From contig JAKVBQ010000004.1 in assembly GCA_022447205.1 (NCBI GenBank), positions 1 to 64,000 of the forward strand: a DNA stretch of 64,000 bases, in the 5' to 3' direction. The notes beneath the pieces were generated by a model. That model did not search any database, was not told where the DNA came from, and saw only the letters and a program-made list of their open reading frames with translations. Position 1 is the stretch's first letter; each line of letters begins with the position of its first letter. Source of the DNA: Phycisphaerales bacterium. Lineage in GTDB: Bacteria > Planctomycetota > Phycisphaerae > Phycisphaerales > SM1A02. Shown one piece after another: positions 4,330 to 26,928 of the stretch. Position numbers and translations under genes: made by a program.

Positions 4330-7300
4330 GCCTTCCCTCCTTCGGAGTTCGAAACCCGGTTCCCGCGAACCTGCTGATGCTCGCGGCGATCGCCGTGGGG
4401 CTCTTCTCCGCCGCGACCCTTCGGCGGGAGTTCTTCCCCGAGGTCGAACCGGACATGGCCCGGGTCTCGATCATCTATCCGGGAGCTTCCCCCGAGGAGA
4501 TCGAACAGTCCCTGGTCTTCAAGGTGGAGGATGCGATCGTCGATGTCGACGAGGTCAAGAGGGTCAGGACCTCGATCAGCGAGGGCTCCGCCAGTGTCAT
4601 GATCGAGTTCGATGACGGCACCGATGTCGACAAGGCGATCGATGATGTCGAACGAACCCTCGAGCGACTCGAGAACCTTCCCGCGGATGCGGAGCGATTG
4701 CAGGTCATCGAGGTCGTTCCGAACATGCCCGTCATCAACATCAACCTCTGGGGCGATGTCGACGAGGAAGTGCTCAAACGCGGCATACGGACGATGGCGG
4801 ACGACCTGAAGTCCCTGCCTCGGATGGGCTCCATGCTCGAGAGCGGGGTTCGGGACTACGAAGTCAGGGTCGATGTCGATCCGGTCAGCCTGCTCGAGCA
4901 GGGCATACCCCTGCCACGGGTCTCCCAGGCCATCGGGTCCTGGATGACCGAGATTCCAAGTGGAACCCTGAAGACCCGAGGCGGCAACATCAACGTGCGT
5001 GCCATCGGCGTGGATGATCGTGGCGAGGAGATCGGCAACATCGTCCTGAAGGCCAACCCCGATGGTTCGACGGTTCGGATACGCGATATCGCTCGCGTCA
5101 TCGAGGACTACGTGGAGATCGACGTCGTGCGTCGATTCAATGGTGCGCCATCCGTGGGTCTCACCGTCTTCCGTGAAGGCAAGCAGGACGCGATCGAGAT
5201 CTCCGCGATGGTCAAGGCCTACGTGGCCGGAAGGAATGGCGAGTCCTACGGTGGCGGCATGCTCGGACCGGTCCTCGAGACGCCGGAGTATCAGGCGTGG
5301 ATACTGGGGTCGAGCCGCACGGAGGCGCTTCCGGGTGAACTCACGACGAGCACCGACCTCGCACGCTTCATCGAGGGTCGTCTGGACCTCCTCTTCCGAA
5401 ACGCGATGCAGGGTGCGGTTCTTGTCTTCATGGCACTCTTCCTGGTCCTCAACATCAGGACTGCCACATGGGTGATGGTCGGCCTCTTCGGAGCGGTCTG
5501 CGGCACGCTTGCGATCATGTACGTCCTCGACATCACGCTCAACCTGCTGACCATGTTCGGGCTGCTCGTCACGCTCGGGATGCTCACCGATGATGCGATC
5601 GTCGTCGCAGAGAACGTCCAGGCCCGATCCGATGCGGGCGATCCACCGGATGAAGCGGCGATCAAGGGCGGAAACGAGGTTCTCTGGCCGGTCCTTGCCA
5701 CGGTGAGCACGACGATCGTCGCATTCCTGCCCCTGCTCTTCATCCAGGGGCAGATCGGCGAACTGATGGGCGCACTTCCCTGGGTCGTCTTCTGCGCGCT
5801 GCTTGCCAGCTACATCGAATCGGTGTTGATCCTTCCCACGCACATGGCCCATGCGCTCGGCGCCGCAGCCGGCAAGGTCAAGACGAGGATCGGTAGGACC
5901 CTCGGACGATGGTATGCCTGGAGGGATGAAGTCCTCATCAACGGCATCGTCAACCGCTACGCGTCGTTCACCCGATCGGCGCTTCGCTACCGGTACATCA
6001 CCACCGCTTGTGCCTTGTCGATCCTGATCGCCTCGATCGGCCTGGTCACCGGTGGCAGGGTGCCCTTCGAGTTCCTCCCCGTCAATGACGCGGAGAACAT
6101 CATGGTCGAGATCAGGATGCCGACCGGAAGCTCCCTCCGGAAGACTCTGGATTTCGCTCGTCGGGTCGAGGATGCCGCTCGCGAGCAGCCCGAGCTTGCG
6201 GCGATCTCCACGACGGTCGGGGGTCGCTTCGATCTCGAGTCCGGCATCGCCCTGAACAGCGAGACGAATACCGCACAGATGTTCATCGAGCTGCTCCCCA
6301 TCGAGGAGCGCCAGCGCGCGAGCGGTGAATTCATCGACTCGGTGCGTCTTGCCTCGGGGGATCTTTCCGAGGCGGATGACATCGCCTTCTCCGTCATGGA
6401 CGGTGGCCCCGGCGGCAAGGACATCACCATCGAGGTCTCCGGCGAGGGACTCGATGAGATGAGGGCGGCCGTCGTCGACATCGAGGCGGAGCTCAACCGG
6501 TTCGACGGTGTCTATGGTGTCGCCAACGATGATGTCGAGGGGCAGCCCGAGATCCGGGTGGAACTTCTTCCCGGTGCCGCTGCACTCGGGCTGAACGTCT
6601 CCGACGTCGCGATGCAGTTGCGTGGCTCGCTCTTCGGGATGGAGGCGCATGTCTTCAGCCGCAATCGCGAGGAGATCGATGTCAGGGTCCGCCTCGAGCG
6701 GGACGGCAGGAACAGGCTCCAGGATCTCGAACAGATGTGGGTCATCACACCTTCAGGTGACTCGGTGCCCCTCGCGGAGGTCGCGAGCCTCGAAGAGACC
6801 ACGGGCTACTCCGCTCTTCGTCGACTGGACCGTCGCCGCGCGATCTCGGTGACGGCAAGCACCGATGACGTCACCAGTCCCGAGGAGGTCTATCGGGAAC
6901 TGGTGCCCTTGATCGAAGGGGTCAGGTCGAAGCATGACCAGGTGCTGATCGAATCAGGTGGAAGGCAGCAGCGCGTCTACGAGGCGTTCTCGACCCTGCC
7001 CATCGCCTTCGCCGCGGCGGTGGTCATGATCTACATCATCCTCGCCTGGCTCTTTGCGAGCTACGTCCAGCCTTTCGCCGTCATGCTCGCAATCCCGTTC
7101 GGACTGATCGGAGTGATCTGGGGTCACCTGCTTCTCGGGTTCGATCTCACGTTCCTGAGCCTGATCGGAATCGTGGCTCTGGCGGGGATCGTCGTGAACA
7201 ACTCACTGATCCTGATCAACTTCTTCAACCGCTTCCGAGCTGAAGGACTCGAGTTGATCGACGCGCTGATCCTCGCCGGGAGGAAACGACTCCGCCCGAT

Positions 7301-20298: not shown

Positions 20299-21375
20299 AT
20301 GCGCGAGGTCCCACGACATCATCGACAGATGCTCCTGCCGGGGATCGGTGCGTCCGGACAGGAGGCGCTGGCCGCGGCACACGTGCTGGTCGTCGGGTGC
20401 GGTGCGCTGGGTTCGGTGGCGATCGACCAGCTGGCTCGGGCCGGGGTCGGGACCCTGACCCTCGTCGACCGCGACATCGTCGAGACCACCAACCTCCAGC
20501 GACAGACGCTGTACGTCGAAGGTGACGTGACCGCGGGCACCCCGAAGGCGGAGGCCGCGGCACGACGGGTGCGTGCGATCGATTCGAGTCTCGTCGCGCA
20601 TCCGGTGGTCGAACACCTCGGGACCGACAACGTGATCGAACTCCTGCGTGGGGTCGACCTCGTCGTCGACGGACTCGACAACTTCCCGACCCGCTACCTC
20701 CTCAACGATGCGTGCGTCCGCGAGGGCGTGCCGTGGATCTACGGTGGTGCGGTCGCGACCGGTGGGATGTCGATGCCGATCCTGCCCGAAGGTGCCGCGA
20801 ACATCGTGACACCCTGCCTGCGATGCGTCTTTCCCGAAGCGCCGCCGCCCGGTTCGACCCCGACCTGCGACACCGCCGGGGTCCTCGCGGCCGCGGTGGC
20901 GACCGTCGCGAGTCACCAGGTGGCCCAGGCGATCAAGCTGCTGGTCGGTGCGGTCGATGCCCTCGATCGGGATCTCGTCTCCTGGGAACTCTGGTCCAAC
21001 CAGGTCCGGAGGATGCGACTCGATGATGCCCGGCGTGCCGACTGCCCCTGCTGCGGAATCCGCTCGTTCCCGCACCTCGAGGCGGCATCCGAGGAACAGG
21101 CGGTCACCCTCTGCGGTCGCAACGCGGTCCAGGTGGTGCCAGGTCGACACTCGGGGCCCGTCGAGCTCGACCTGCCGGCCTTGTCCGAACGACTTGCCCC
21201 CCATGGTGATTTCGAGGTGGTCGCCGGCACCCTCAGGGGTAGGATTGACGGCCTCGAAGGGGAATCGGGCGACCCCGTCGAACTGACCGTCTTCCCCGAC
21301 GGTCGGGCGATCATCTTCGGATCGATCGAACCGGAATTCGCCCGGAGCACCTACGCCCGCTTCATCGGGCAGTGA
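20299..21375 (+). CDS. ThiF/MoeB/HesA-family adenylyltransferase
   Basis: An E1-like enzyme that adenylates the C-terminal glycine of a ubiquitin-like sulfur carrier (ThiS or MoaD). Seen: nucleotide-binding VVGCGALGS (residues 32-39), VDRDIVETTNLQRQ, the zinc Cys pairs at Cys173/176 and Cys249/252, and a Cys190 in the crossover position (STPTCDTAG). An extra C-terminal domain of about 90 residues ends ELTVFPDGRAIIFG...YARFIG. I recall this tail in ThiF-type proteins of several phyla. No carrier or thi/moa genes are adjacent, so thiamine versus molybdopterin synthesis cannot be decided. Confidence 0.88.
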   Translation: MREVPRHHRQMLLPGIGASGQEALAAAHVLVVGCGALGSVAIDQLARAGVGTLTLVDRDIVETTNLQRQTLYVEGDVTAGTPKAEAAARRVRAIDSSLVAHPVVEHLGTDNVIELLRGVDLVVDGLDNFPTRYLLNDACVREGVPWIYGGAVATGGMSMPILPEGAANIVTPCLRCVFPEAPPPGSTPTCDTAGVLAAAVATVASHQVAQAIKLLVGAVDALDRDLVSWELWSNQVRRMRLDDARRADCPCCGIRSFPHLEAASEEQAVTLCGRNAVQVVPGRHSGPVELDLPALSERLAPHGDFEVVAGTLRGRIDGLEGESGDPVELTVFPDGRAIIFGSIEPEFARSTYARFIGQ

Positions 21376-21420
21376 ACGCTCTTCGTCTCCTTGCTCTTTT
21401 CTTGCCGACCGGAACCAATC

Positions 21421-21936
21421 ATGACCACCGAAATCGCATCCACCCACGTCACCGGCCTCGCCAACGCACTCGAGAAGACGGTCGGCTACGGCCAGTCCCT
21501 CCTGGCCGACATCGAACCGGACACCTTCGCGCACATGCCTTCGCCCGGTTTCAACCACCCCGCATTCAACTACGGGCACCTCGCGCTCTATCCGAATCGC
21601 TGCCTGGAGATGGTCGGTCGTGCAGATGCGATGATCGAACTGCCCTTCGACGCCGAACACTACGAACAGGGTGCGGAGTGCGTCGAACAGGACGGTCGCT
21701 ACGCCTCGATGGACGTGCTGACCGGTACCTTCCTCGAGACCCACCAGCGGTTGATCGAGGTGCTGCCGGGCGTCGATCCCGACTCCCTGCGCGTCGAACT
21801 CCCGGAAGGTCGCTACCGCGACTTCTTCGGCACCGTCGGCAACGCACTCACCTTCATGACCTGCAGTCACACCATGATGCACCTCGGACAGGTGAGCATG
21901 TGGCGACGTGCGATGGGGCTCGGTTCGTGCATGTGA
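21421..21936 (+). CDS. DinB-family protein
   Basis: A 171-aa four-helix-bundle protein of the DinB/YfiT superfamily, whose members bind a metal with three His and often act as thiol-dependent transferases. The His candidates are in FNHPAFNYGHLALYP and SHTMMHLGQVSMWRR, the latter being the usual C-terminal HxxxH of the family. The start is ATG 21421. Its stop codon shares bases with the next gene's start (TGATG at 21934-21938), so the two are probably coupled. Confidence 0.8.
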   Translation: MTTEIASTHVTGLANALEKTVGYGQSLLADIEPDTFAHMPSPGFNHPAFNYGHLALYPNRCLEMVGRADAMIELPFDAEHYEQGAECVEQDGRYASMDVLTGTFLETHQRLIEVLPGVDPDSLRVELPEGRYRDFFGTVGNALTFMTCSHTMMHLGQVSMWRRAMGLGSCM

Positions 21937-24386
21937 TGGCGCTTCGCGCGCCCTGTTGCCTGTTTGCCCTGGTGTTCGCCATCCTGCTGGCGACGGCCGG
22001 GGTCCATGCACAGGGGACCCGGGGGCAGCTCCCCGATCCCGCGGACAGCCGGACCCTGAGCCGGCACCTCGAACGCTTCGTCGCGCCCACCGTCCAGCAG
22101 TGGCAACGGATCGAGGACCTGCACGAGGCCTACCTCGAACGATTCGCGGCGCTTCGGGAAGGGGACCTCGCTCGCTTCCTCGCGTTCGTCGAGCGTGAAA
22201 TGGCGGGCGTGCCGGATGCCGCGACCGCACGTGAATTCCTGCGCAGGCTCCAGAACGCCCGGCGAAGGATCGACGAGGAGGACGCCCGGCTCCATGCCGG
22301 GATCGACGAGCTCCTCGAGGAGGCGCAGCGACCCGGGCTGAACCGGGTCCGCCTCGCCCGACAACGCGAGAGCCTTGCGTCCGGACTCGCCGAATCCGGC
22401 AACAGCCAGGTCTTCGACATCTGGTCGATCCTCGACGAGCACGCCCATGTGCTCGGTGCCGAGGTGATCAAGGCGCTCGATCCGGTGATGATCGGGTACG
22501 AACAGGAACTGACCGCCGCCCTGCGTGTCTGGCGAGCTGCCCAGGAATCGATGTTCCTGGTCCTGGTCGAGGAACTCCAGGCGCGCGGGCTTGGTGAACT
22601 CTCGGCCGCCGATGCGACGCCCGAGCAGATGCAGGAGGCAGTCCAGGCGATTCGTCTCGCCTTCGACAGCGCGCAGGCGGAGAGTCGGGTCGCGCAGGAT
22701 CGCGTCCGCAAGCTCAACGACCGGACGATCAAGCGCCTCGAGGAGCTGCTCGGACCGATGCACGGCCGACGCATTCGCATGGCGCATGTCGAACGCGCCT
22801 CGAGGAAGACCATCCGTCGCGATCCGGGACGCATCGAGCGGACCATCGCCCGACTGCTCGCGCTGGAGGATCTCGACTCCGAGGTCAGGGACGGCGTGCT
22901 TTCGGTCCGCGGGACGCACCGTTCGATCGACGACCGTCATGTCGCCCGGATGCTGGAGGCCTGGCCTGAACTCGACAGGCAGCGGTCCGTGGTCGTCGAT
23001 GACGACATCGAGGCATTCGGGACGATCGCCGAGATTCGCGAGATCCTCGAGACCAGTGCCCGGCAACGAACGGAGCTCGCCGAATCGAGTCGTGATGCGC
23101 TGCTCGACATCATCGAGCCCACGGGTCGTCGCGACCTGGTCGCGATCATCGAGCGTGGGGGACTCGAGGTCGACGAGGACGCCGGATCGAAGGGGACCGA
23201 GGCGTTGTCCGAACGGGATCCGGAACGCGGCGGTCCCGGGGACTTCATGCCGAAGCGTCTTTCACGACGTGATCTCGAGCGCATCTGCCGCGGGCTCGGT
23301 CCGGAGCCCTGGCAGCAGGCGGTCATCGACACCATCCATCGTGACTACGTCGAGACGTGGCGTGCTGGTGTCGACCCGATCGTCCAGAGCGCTAGGAGCG
23401 CCCATGCTTCCGTGCATGGCGTCGACACCGAGACGATGCTGCCCACCACGGATGTCGAACAGCTCAGGCGCGCCTATGCACTCGCTCGGGATGCGGTGGA
23501 ACGGATCACGGTGATCGACGGCGACTTCTTCGATGATCTTGCGGTCGCCCTGAACGAGGACCAGCTTCCCGCCCTGCTCCGATCGCGCACGAGGCGTGCA
23601 CTGGATCGCTGCCTTCGGGGCACCGATCCGTTCTTCGATCCCGCCGGCATGGCGTTCCGGCCCGCGAACCTGATCGCGGTGCTTGATGGGATCGAGCTTG
23701 ATGACGATGAATCCGCCCGTGTCGACTCGTACCTTGCGGAGAGCGCTCCTGGGCTGATCGCCGCCGCCCGTGTCGCGCGGGACGTCAGGTTCGCCTCCGA
23801 ACTGAGGCTGCATGAACTGAACATGCGGATGGCCGCCGGCATGGCCGAGGGCACCCTGACCTCCTCCGACCACGGGATCGAGTATCGCCGTCTCTCTGAT
23901 GCGATGGCTCTTGAACACGGTGAACACGTGGAGGCCTGGCGGCGCATGCACGACCAGGTCGTTTCCGGACTGGTCGAACGGCTCGGCCCCGGCAGCCGGG
24001 AGAACTACACCCGCGCCTGGAAGCAGGCCTCCAATCCGTACGTCTACCGGGATGCCAACTGCGCGATCGCACCGATCGAGCAGGTGCTCCAGATCCCGGA
24101 TCTCAGCAGCGAGCAACTCGATGCCGTCGCCGCGATCCTCGCCGAATACGACGCCGAATGGTCCGCCCTGTGCGAGGACATGGTGGTGATCCGCGAGAAG
24201 ATGAAGATGTTCGGTGCTGACAGCAGCCCCGAGGACTACGATCTCTGGCGCACCCTCGACGCCGACTATCGTGCCCTCGAGTTCCGACGCGACGAGGCGA
24301 GCATCAAGGCCCTCCGCCGCGTGTCCCGGTATCTCGAACCCGAGCAGCGATCACGGGTCAGGGCTCTTCGTCGGCTCGAACAGTAG
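21936..24386 (+). CDS. exported helical-repeat protein, paralogue A
   Basis: An 816-aa protein with a Sec signal (CCLFALVFAILLATAGVHA, cleavage before QG) and a largely helical mature region. I recognise no known domain. Repeating elements are visible: a 'QWxxIxxLHxxYxxRF' helix near the N-terminus (QWQRIEDLHEAYLERFAALR), related helices in the middle (WQQAVIDTIHRDYVETW) and near the C-terminus (LSSEQLDAVAAILAEYDAEW), and a second element such as DGDFFDDLAVALNEDQLPAL followed by an Arg-rich stretch. It is colinear with the next gene's product. Periplasmic or surface location is inferred. The start is the ATG at 21936, overlapping the dinB-family stop. Confidence 0.8.
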   Translation: MALRAPCCLFALVFAILLATAGVHAQGTRGQLPDPADSRTLSRHLERFVAPTVQQWQRIEDLHEAYLERFAALREGDLARFLAFVEREMAGVPDAATAREFLRRLQNARRRIDEEDARLHAGIDELLEEAQRPGLNRVRLARQRESLASGLAESGNSQVFDIWSILDEHAHVLGAEVIKALDPVMIGYEQELTAALRVWRAAQESMFLVLVEELQARGLGELSAADATPEQMQEAVQAIRLAFDSAQAESRVAQDRVRKLNDRTIKRLEELLGPMHGRRIRMAHVERASRKTIRRDPGRIERTIARLLALEDLDSEVRDGVLSVRGTHRSIDDRHVARMLEAWPELDRQRSVVVDDDIEAFGTIAEIREILETSARQRTELAESSRDALLDIIEPTGRRDLVAIIERGGLEVDEDAGSKGTEALSERDPERGGPGDFMPKRLSRRDLERICRGLGPEPWQQAVIDTIHRDYVETWRAGVDPIVQSARSAHASVHGVDTETMLPTTDVEQLRRAYALARDAVERITVIDGDFFDDLAVALNEDQLPALLRSRTRRALDRCLRGTDPFFDPAGMAFRPANLIAVLDGIELDDDESARVDSYLAESAPGLIAAARVARDVRFASELRLHELNMRMAAGMAEGTLTSSDHGIEYRRLSDAMALEHGEHVEAWRRMHDQVVSGLVERLGPGSRENYTRAWKQASNPYVYRDANCAIAPIEQVLQIPDLSSEQLDAVAAILAEYDAEWSALCEDMVVIREKMKMFGADSSPEDYDLWRTLDADYRALEFRRDEASIKALRRVSRYLEPEQRSRVRALRRLEQ

Positions 24387-24426
24387 CGTTCACCAGGATC
24401 CGTTCTGGTCATCCGGAGGTTCCCGC

Positions 24427-26928
24427 ATGCAGTCCGAAGCGCATCGATGGACGTTCCTTGCCGTTCTCCTCGTCATGTGCGTCGTCCTTGGCTGTCATCC
24501 GAGATCACTTCAGGCCCAGGGCACGATGCAGCAGCTGCCCGATCCCATGGGCAGCAAGCAACTCCTCCGGCTCATCGACCGTCACCTGGATCCCGCGCCG
24601 GAGCAGTGGCTTCTCATCGATGAACTGCATGCGACCTACCTCGAGCGATTCAAGGCGCTCCGGGAAGGACCGATCGAGACGTTCCTGTCGGAGTCGAATC
24701 GGATGATGATGTCCGCTTCGATGCCCGATCGGAAGACGTTCGACCGGTTCATGCAGAAACTCGATCGCGTTGAATCGAGAATCAGGTCCGTCGACGACGA
24801 GCTGTTCGAGGCGATCATCCCGCTGCTCTCGGAAGAGGAGGTGCCGGAACTGCTTCGTGCACGCCAGGCTCGCGAGCGGATCCGTCTCATGTCCGGATCC
24901 GCCCGGAACATGGGGACCTCGCCCCCGGCACGCGACCTCTGGTCGACCATCGACTCCGCAGGACTCGACGACACGCAGCTGGATCTCGTCGACGAGGTGA
25001 TGCGCGACTACGAGGCGGGCATCACCGTCCTGCTCCGCAAGTGGCATGACGGCAGTGTGGGCACGATGGGCATCGTGCTCGACGAACTCGAGGCCCGGGG
25101 CTTCGGAGGGGTCGAGTTCGACCCGTTGGATGTCGACGATGAACTGATGAGGCGGATGATGGAAGCGGTGGAAGCGGCCAATCGAACGGCCATGGAACGG
25201 AACTTCGACCATTGTCGCCGTGCACGCGACCTCACCCAGCGCAAGCTGCTCGAACTCTGTGCACTGCTCGATCGGACATCGGCTCGACGGCTGAAGTTGA
25301 CGTACGTCGCCTCCGGACTCTTCCAGGGATTCTCGAGTGTCGTGGGTGAGGAGTTCGACCCCCCGCGAGGTCCCGATCTTCCCGGTGACATCGAGCGGGT
25401 GCTCGAGGACGGTGGACTCCCGTCCGAAGTCCGGAACGAGATCGAGCCTCTTCTCATGGCGGAGCTGAACGCCTACCTGGTCTCGGATCATGCCATCCTC
25501 GACGACCTCTGCAGGATCATCCGTGCGTACGACCCGATGGAGGCGATGGTGGACTTCGATTCGATGGTGATGGGCGAGGGCGAGGAGGAGCCTTCCGCCA
25601 CCGCGCTTCTCTCGAATCGATTCGATGCACTTCGCGAGGATCGCATCGCGCTCGACCGTCTGCATCGGTCGAGGATCCTGGACCTGATCCGTCCGCTTGG
25701 TTTCGAACGGATCAACACGATCATGGAGCAGGGCCCCGTGGATGAAGGGGATGCCCCGGACATCGCGGTGGAGTTCATCGATGGGAACCTGACCCTGCCC
25801 GGCGAGGGTTTCAACTCCCTGAACCGGAACTGGGTGATCGATCCGATCGATGTCCCGGCGCTCGCCCGCATCCGCCGGCTGCTCGGACTCGACGACTCCA
25901 TGGAAGCCGTCCTGGCCGCACTTCATGAACGGTACCTCGAGCAGTGGGCGGAGGATGTCCGGGGGGTGCTGGCGCTGGTCACCGCCGAGGACGATGAGAG
26001 CAGCGAGACCAGCCAGGCGCACCTTGCCCGGGCGATGTCGAGTGCCCGTTCCATCGACCTCGCCTTCTTCGAGGAACTCGCCCTCACCCTGCCCGAGACG
26101 TCCGGCGTGCTGGTCGAAGCGCTTCGCGAGGAACGCCGGTGCGACCATGCATTGCTTCGTGAGTGGTCGGTCGCTTCGAAGCCCGCTCTCTACGAACGAG
26201 TCAACGCCCTTCGCATCCTCCTCGACGCCGACCAGGATCCGGAGGCTCTCGAAGCCTCGCTTGCGGTCGTGTCGGAAGCGGGCTCGGCCCTCGTCGATGC
26301 ACTCGAGGCGCTTGCCACGAGGCGTTTCCTGGGCTGGCATGAAGGTCAGCGGGTGAGGATGCGCCTGTTCGAGGCGATCGAGGATGGCGGTGTGCCACGG
26401 GAGATGTCCCTCCAGTCGCTCGAGGAGGTCACGCGCACCGTCAATGACGGGATCCCGCCGCTCCTCGCGGAGGTGGACGCCGGCGCGAAGCTCTTCGAGG
26501 CGACACTCCTCGAATCCTGCGGTGAAGCTCGACTGGAGACCTTCACGTCCCGGATGCGGGAAGCGGCCCACCCCCGGATCTATCGAGACGCCTCCGACCT
26601 TCGTCCGGTCTTCGCACTCGTTCTCCGGTTGGACGATCTCACCGACGAACAGCGCGAGCGCATCGAGTCGATCGAGGATGACTTCGGTGACTCGTGGGGC
26701 GACCTTTCGCGTCGGATGTCGCGCATCGATCCCTTCGTGAGCTTCGTGATGACCGCCGACATGGAGGCGCAACGTGCGTTGCATGATTCGATGAACCGCT
26801 ACGAACAGCTCGACTTCCAGAGGCAGGAACTGGCCGGCAGGTTCCTTCGCAAGCTGGCCCGATCGCTCGGAGAGGAGCAGCGTGCTCGATTTCGGGTCTT
26901 CAAGGGCGTGCTCGATGGGGCCGGCTGA
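24427..26928 (+). CDS. exported helical-repeat protein, paralogue B
   Basis: An 833-aa paralogue of the preceding product, 40 bases downstream. The signal region (WTFLAVLLVMCVVLGCHP...LQAQG) could be cleaved at AQA-type LQA|QG, as in paralogue A, or lipidated at the LGC cysteine. Both mature proteins start QGTxxQLPDP and share LHxxYLERFxALREG, DLWSxID, LDELEARG-like and YRDA segments in the same order. Repeat helices include QWLLIDELHATYLERFKALR, MEAVLAALHERYLEQW and LTDEQRERIESIEDDFGDSW; the last resembles the LTxxQ helices of Spy/CpxP periplasmic proteins. The start is ATG 24427. Function unknown. Confidence 0.8.
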   Translation: MQSEAHRWTFLAVLLVMCVVLGCHPRSLQAQGTMQQLPDPMGSKQLLRLIDRHLDPAPEQWLLIDELHATYLERFKALREGPIETFLSESNRMMMSASMPDRKTFDRFMQKLDRVESRIRSVDDELFEAIIPLLSEEEVPELLRARQARERIRLMSGSARNMGTSPPARDLWSTIDSAGLDDTQLDLVDEVMRDYEAGITVLLRKWHDGSVGTMGIVLDELEARGFGGVEFDPLDVDDELMRRMMEAVEAANRTAMERNFDHCRRARDLTQRKLLELCALLDRTSARRLKLTYVASGLFQGFSSVVGEEFDPPRGPDLPGDIERVLEDGGLPSEVRNEIEPLLMAELNAYLVSDHAILDDLCRIIRAYDPMEAMVDFDSMVMGEGEEEPSATALLSNRFDALREDRIALDRLHRSRILDLIRPLGFERINTIMEQGPVDEGDAPDIAVEFIDGNLTLPGEGFNSLNRNWVIDPIDVPALARIRRLLGLDDSMEAVLAALHERYLEQWAEDVRGVLALVTAEDDESSETSQAHLARAMSSARSIDLAFFEELALTLPETSGVLVEALREERRCDHALLREWSVASKPALYERVNALRILLDADQDPEALEASLAVVSEAGSALVDALEALATRRFLGWHEGQRVRMRLFEAIEDGGVPREMSLQSLEEVTRTVNDGIPPLLAEVDAGAKLFEATLLESCGEARLETFTSRMREAAHPRIYRDASDLRPVFALVLRLDDLTDEQRERIESIEDDFGDSWGDLSRRMSRIDPFVSFVMTADMEAQRALHDSMNRYEQLDFQRQELAGRFLRKLARSLGEEQRARFRVFKGVLDGAG

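Follow-up and report, generated by a model that had tools for sequence, protein, structure and literature searches.

Adjacent exported proteins of a Phycisphaerales bacterium with a predicted six-unit Spy/CpxP/CnrX-type architecture

The window analysed here is a stretch of 64,000 nucleotides from a Phycisphaerales bacterium (assembly GCA_022447205.1, contig JAKVBQ010000004.1, positions 1 to 64,000). On its forward strand lie two adjacent genes, designated A (21936..24386) and B (24427..26928), which code for proteins of 816 and 833 amino acids, respectively. It is very likely that both products are exported, elongated, all-helical proteins composed of six units with the fold of Spy, CpxP and CnrX. 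The original prediction, made from the sequence alone, had taken them to be built from an apparently undescribed helical repeat. This was not supported, since the repeat has a known fold, though in divergent form, namely that of the LTXXQ (PF07813)/Metal_resist (PF13801) superfamily. What is new is the fixed concatenation of six units and not the repeat itself.

Both open reading frames, together with the tandem arrangement and predicted export, were confirmed. The genes are intact and codirectional, with 40 bases between them, and BLASTP aligned their products end to end with 27% identity (E 3e-54). The motifs originally quoted as common to both were found, namely AQGTxxQLPDP, LHxxYLERFxALREG, D[LI]WSx[IL]D (FDIWSILD in A) and YRDA. 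Sequence and conservation place the signal peptide of A at 21936..22010 (+), with cleavage between VHA and QGT, while sequence and alignment place that of B at 24427..24516 (+), with cleavage between LQA and QGT; a lipobox-like VLGC upstream of the latter site is not conserved in the alignment. All full-length members of the family examined possess a signal-peptide-like N terminus of the AxA/Q type, and the glutamine directly following the signal peptide (Q26 in A) is invariant in 26 homologues. A and B are tandem paralogues, their export being predicted from these signal peptides. Both are acidic, with isoelectric points of 5.1 (A) and 4.6 (B) against a family median of 4.9.

Comparison of profiles built from the 26 homologues revealed the internal organisation. 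The N-terminal and C-terminal halves match each other with an E-value of 7.8e-44 over 364 columns (hhalign), and an off-diagonal match of the C-terminal half of A to the N-terminal half of B was already visible by BLASTP (E 1e-4). Within one module the three units match one another with E-values of 1e-7, 2e-9 and 6e-9, for which reversed profiles gave 1.3e-3 to 0.03 and column shuffles scored about four times lower. Units of the same type are closest to each other (U1-U4, 7e-23; U2-U5, 2e-18; U3-U6, 8e-16), and cross-type pairs range between 1e-9 and 2e-4. Because these matches far exceed the reversed and shuffled controls, the internal repeat is well beyond chance; because they occur both between halves and between units, A and B can each be written as (U1-U2-U3)x2, i.e. 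two modules of three helical units of about 115 amino acids each. The two internally repeated elements reported previously are real, being N- and C-module copies, and VDDELFEAIIPLLSEEEVPE in B and IDGDFFDDLAVALNEDQLPA in A come from the equivalent part of units 1 and 4; the full period is, however, one of six units (2 x 3). Each protein has Spy/CpxP-like units about six times over. The 15 long homologues examined always contain two modules and never three. In the family the terminal units, U1 and U6, are the best conserved and the inner units are eroded.

The units of A, all on the forward strand, were delimited from its model and by profile comparison. U1 (22041..22385), also backed by conservation, carries both LxxxQ positions, with a glutamine that is about 95% conserved; U2 (22413..22805) has degenerate motifs and is followed by U3 (22809..23159). 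The second module comprises U4 (23253..23621), U5 (23664..24044) and U6 (24048..24377), which are copies of U1, U2 and U3, respectively. U5 was further delimited by its alignment to CnrX (4wwf), and U6, for which conservation was again used, contains LSSEQ and LEPEQ. The unit assignment for B, likewise on the forward strand, gave U1 at 24547..24897, U2 at 24934..25374, U3 at 25378..25800, U4 at 25840..26136, U5 at 26200..26580 and U6, with LTDEQR and LGEEQ, at 26584..26922.

The relation to the superfamily was apparent with a query profile that combined LTXXQ proteins from this order with the Spy, CpxP and ZraP sequences of E. coli MG1655. It matched U1 (8e-9), U6 (5e-9), U3 (5e-7) and U4 (2e-5), and more weakly U2 (9e-4) and U5 (2e-3). 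Reversed units gave values of at least 0.058 (0.06-0.25) and 60 shuffles gave at least 0.006. A single column shuffle with a raw score of 131.4 was set aside as an artefact, as it was absent from 60 new shuffles, the highest of which scored 10.9. Spy possesses two LTxxQ motifs (PMC4791398). In the LTXXQ family the two motifs of a domain are separated by about 75 residues. Paired LxxxQ motifs with a near-invariant glutamine were found in U1 (25/26 and 24/26 homologues, spacing 76) and in U6 (22/26 and 25/26, spacing 77). The case that U1, U3, U4 and U6 belong to the LTXXQ/Metal_resist superfamily, with Spy, CpxP, ZraP and CnrX, is strong; U2 and U5 would be included because they match the remaining units and because of the model of A.

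Neither A (12.9 bits) nor B (15.5 bits) reaches the Pfam gathering cut-off of 24.3 bits for LTXXQ (PF07813). Some relatives found in the genome scans do exceed it, with 27.4, 26.3, 25.9 and 26.0 bits at U6- and U4-type positions; overall, scores above the cut-off come from positions of the U1, U4 and U6 types or from single modules. Since A and B lie below the cut-off while some of their relatives lie above it, we regard their family as a remote relative of LTXXQ and not as a curated member. LTXXQ is the sole Pfam family matched by many members (10/25 proteins, 14/22 U6 units and 9/23 modules, the best single module having an E-value of 1.2e-7). Metal_resist (PF13801) was additionally matched by three U6 units. 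Matches to AlkA_N, Syntaxin, Mst1_SARAH and AAA_lid_7, in one or two members each, were rejected as helical noise. An NCBIfam search with A or B produced no meaningful match, and searches of PDB with either as a single sequence produced none. The U6 profile matched only weakly ribosomal L29 and other helical proteins among the PDB sequences, and ZraP (3lay) was the second PDB sequence match of the U1/U4 profile (E 0.035).

Structure prediction and fold searches agree with the profile comparison, which upholds the originally noted resemblance of one helix to those of Spy and CpxP, and all three point to regular helical repeats of Spy-like units. AlphaFold2, run on A with eight sequences, returned an all-helical chain (mean predicted local distance difference test, pLDDT, 78; predicted template modelling score, pTM, 0.65) in which a short-long-long-short helix pattern recurs six times, at residues 36-150, 160-290, 292-408, 440-562, 577-703 and 705-814. 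In Foldseek the whole 816-residue model had no significant match. Using VIA, U5 of this model could be superposed on CnrX (4wwf) over 109 of 111 residues at 2.6 Å; the STV protein was matched by U1 over 99/104 residues and by U5 over 100/105 residues, at 2.6-2.7 Å. U6 of B, modelled alone, gave four helices (pLDDT 89, pTM 0.79) in the short-long-long-short arrangement of Spy, CpxP and CnrX. Its first ten Foldseek matches in PDB were all CnrX or NccX (probability 0.97-0.99, template modelling score up to 0.73), followed by CpxP (3itf, probability 0.94), STV and Spy; the corresponding VIA Z-scores were 11.1 for CnrX, 8.3 for CpxP, 7.5-7.9 for Spy and 7.5 for ZraP. The plant transcription factors TGA3 and TGA7, which can also be laid on U6 (Z 9-10), were rejected, as they rank below CnrX in Foldseek and lack the shared motifs. 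Because the Foldseek E-values exceed 0.1 for every match and unrelated helical bundles can also reach a Z-score of 11, the structural evidence supports the superfamily relation and does not prove it.

A profile built from 25 members detected these proteins in 78 of the 81 genomes sampled from the host's own family, and in 44 of 45 genera; tblastn-type searches recovered relatives from 24 of 41 related genomes. A set of five sequences worked as an alignment query, alignments of 25 and 8 sequences being too divergent, and B alone as a query against the genome contigs retrieved no relatives. Full-length members are colinear and of about 800-900 amino acids. At least nine of the sampled genomes carry the gene as a tandem pair, and one carries three copies in a row. 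In the genome with L044 the second gene copy occupies two frames (4652-5308 and 5053-7203, 219 and 717 amino acids), which is attributed to a frameshift or an assembly error. In the tree A groups with L023:7901 and L024, and B with L023:5037 and L022, which places the split between A and B in the common ancestor of the host genus and a neighbouring genus.

Shorter relatives are also present. One-unit LTXXQ proteins occur in the same order, as do two-unit proteins of 314-447 amino acids (L090, 314 amino acids; L094, 430 amino acids; L102; L112). L090 is also over the Metal_resist and DUF3826 cut-offs. Three-unit modules are represented by L049 and L064-L070. The host genome itself has two three-unit paralogues, L049:1279-2754 (+; G000:C25, 491 amino acids, E 1e-28) and L050:1261-3276 (-; G000:C52, 671 amino acids, E 2e-20). 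The C-terminal tail of the former is rich in proline and glycine. The latter contains long glycine-rich stretches and a C-terminal EF-hand-like motif, DTDGDGELSESE, which is sub-threshold in Pfam, and it adjoins a gene assigned by eye as serine acetyltransferase-like. Adjacent large exported-looking proteins at L051:415-2334 (-) and G000:C7:26751-26963 weakly resemble the module start (E 1e-4 to 3e-5) and are possibly more distant members of the family. Three-unit genes also occur in tandem in family f2, and in a sister family (G025:C1, L064; G034:C1, L065 and L066) two or three of them follow one another at loci unrelated to thiF.

Taken together, the one-, two- and three-unit proteins of the relatives suggest an order for the duplications. 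An LTxxQ-type unit would have been triplicated to give a three-unit module, and this module would then have been duplicated and fused into a six-unit protein, both steps having left their trace in the sequence and in the model. Tandem duplication of the gene would finally have produced A and B. As far as the titles and opening lines of abstracts in the open, non-subscription literature on LTXXQ go, no multi-unit or planctomycete proteins are described.

The surroundings of the genes are conserved. Upstream of A lie a ThiF-family gene (20299..21375, +; Pfam 1.8e-71), which is the upstream neighbour in most of the loci read, and a DinB_2-family gene (21391..21936, +), which is found in about half of them; both assignments are from Pfam and synteny. 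The ATG of A (21936) overlaps the stop codon of the latter as TGATG, its A being the last base of the stop. The general gene order is rnhA-rpsL-rpsG-thiF-(dinB)-[one or two copies]-(glpK-glpD or panB-htrA). Three-unit relatives of the sister families were not found at the thiF locus, so these relatives do not share the synteny. Across 45 genome pairs the six-unit protein averages 22% identity in its best match, versus 50% for its ThiF neighbour, and it was the lower of the two in every pair. The six-unit gene is thus kept in place and yet diverges fast. At about seven loci the second gene downstream of the six-unit gene, next after panB, encodes an HtrA/DegP-like protease (Trypsin_2 and PDZ domains), as at L030:380-1903 (-), with equivalents in L031, L038, L039, L041, L042 and L046. 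A scan for promoters and terminators gave nothing above expectation. An open frame of 759 amino acids runs antisense to B (window 24505-26784, -), as is expected from the high G+C content; the homologues back the forward-strand gene B only.

The superfamily spans an ATP-independent chaperone (Spy), a kinase-binding accessory protein (CpxP) and metal sensors (CnrX). By analogy with it, we consider that A and B have close to an even chance of being a periplasmic client-binding array or a CpxP-like adaptor. Unfolded or partly folded envelope proteins would be bound, without ATP, along an array of covalently linked Spy-like surfaces; alternatively, such clients would be handed to another envelope factor, e.g. 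an HtrA protease. The narrower proposal of a covalently concatenated Spy-type chaperone with six client-binding units per chain, retained at the ribosomal-protein/thiF locus in almost every genome of the family and acting as a main envelope chaperone or as a DegP adaptor, is doubtful. CpxP cooperates with DegP, and its R56 is needed for interaction with CpxA (PMC4160245). This residue sits right after the first LTxxQ, and the matching position is arginine in 17/26 U6, 16/26 U3 and 12/26 U1 units. The HtrA-type neighbour at about seven loci also counts in favour. Several observations weigh against a client-binding array or adaptor. How the six units are arranged in A is modelled with only moderate confidence, as the pTM indicates; the LxxxQ motifs are largely lost in U2-U5 of the 26 homologues; and the acidic A and B differ from Spy and CpxP, whose concave surfaces are positive. 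In addition, glpK-glpD takes the place of the HtrA neighbour elsewhere, the host genome included, and no stress kinase, sigma or anti-sigma factor was identified from the genes of about 20 loci with partly annotated neighbours. Among the recurrent neighbours at the locus no CpxA-type kinase was identified either.

The main rival is an envelope scaffold or spacer, in which the six units would form a long semi-rigid, spectrin-like rod that takes no part in client folding. The fixed number of modules in all 15 long homologues would suit such a role, as would better conserved ends that could serve as binding sites, rapid sequence change under a conserved architecture and an acidic, soluble composition. 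Nevertheless, no transmembrane or cell-wall anchor was recognised, partner genes that recur on both sides are lacking, and the conserved residues (LHxxY, RxxR and LxxxQ) are those of the superfamily motif. We consider a scaffold rather unlikely. It is also conceivable that the proteins are secreted or displayed at the surface, as an adhesin, a matrix component or a predation-related factor. The very fast divergence, at a locus that is itself conserved, would thereby be accounted for; the signal peptide is in keeping with such a function, and one three-unit paralogue of the host has the glycine-rich and EF-hand-like segments described above. Such a function is improbable, as A and B have no recognisable surface anchor or sorting signal and as near-universal presence at a single locus fits a housekeeping role better.

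A sensor of metals or of envelope stress, which like CnrX, NccX or ZraP would act on a membrane signalling partner, has an equally small chance of being correct. CnrX is the closest solved fold and three U6 units matched Metal_resist, but there is no conserved set of histidine, methionine or cysteine residues: among these, H63 alone reaches 70% conservation across the family, and none of the cysteines does. This absence of conserved metal ligands makes a metal function less likely, and sigma/anti-sigma or kinase genes were not identified at the locus. Far less credible still is the view that the likeness to Spy is a generic resemblance between helical hairpins that arose without common descent. 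It could draw on the insignificant Foldseek E-values, on a Z-score shared with unrelated bundles and on the sub-threshold scores of A and B for LTXXQ. It is already contradicted by profile-profile E-values as low as 5e-9 against 0.06-0.25 for the reversed controls, by the relatives over the LTXXQ cut-off and by paired LxxxQ motifs conserved at the spacing of the superfamily.

A widespread family of 'hypothetical proteins' can now be placed beside a well-studied one. To our knowledge, the characterised members of the superfamily are single-unit oligomers (dimers in Spy and CpxP, a decamer in ZraP). A lineage with chains of three or six linked units, constant in number and almost universally present, would allow the effects of avidity and array length in ATP-independent chaperoning to be tested, and the architecture would point to uncharted protein quality control in the planctomycete envelope.

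In comparison with known systems, A and B share with the E. coli periplasmic chaperone Spy (PF07813) the fold of the unit, two LTxxQ motifs and a signal peptide. Spy, however, is a single unit of about 138 amino acids that dimerises into a positive cradle, whereas A and B carry six units on one acidic chain of about 790-800 amino acids. CpxP, the Cpx accessory protein, is alike in its fold and in the LTxxQ-R sequence, the equivalent of R56 often being arginine; it differs as a single-unit antiparallel dimer with a cognate kinase, CpxA, no such kinase having been recognised near A and B. The periplasmic nickel/cobalt sensors CnrX and NccX, which are Metal_resist-like, provide the closest solved fold to U6 and U5 (template modelling score 0.65-0.74). 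Unlike them, A and B have six units, no conserved metal ligands of the His/Glu/Met set and no recognised sigma/anti-sigma neighbours. The zinc resistance-associated protein ZraP resembles U1 and U4 through the PDB sequence match to 3lay, but it is a homo-decamer of single units with a role in zinc, whereas the units of A and B are covalently linked. The two-unit (L090, L094) and three-unit (L049, L064-L070) proteins are similar to A and B in that several LTXXQ-type units are held in one exported chain, and differ from them in having two or three units and in occupying other loci.

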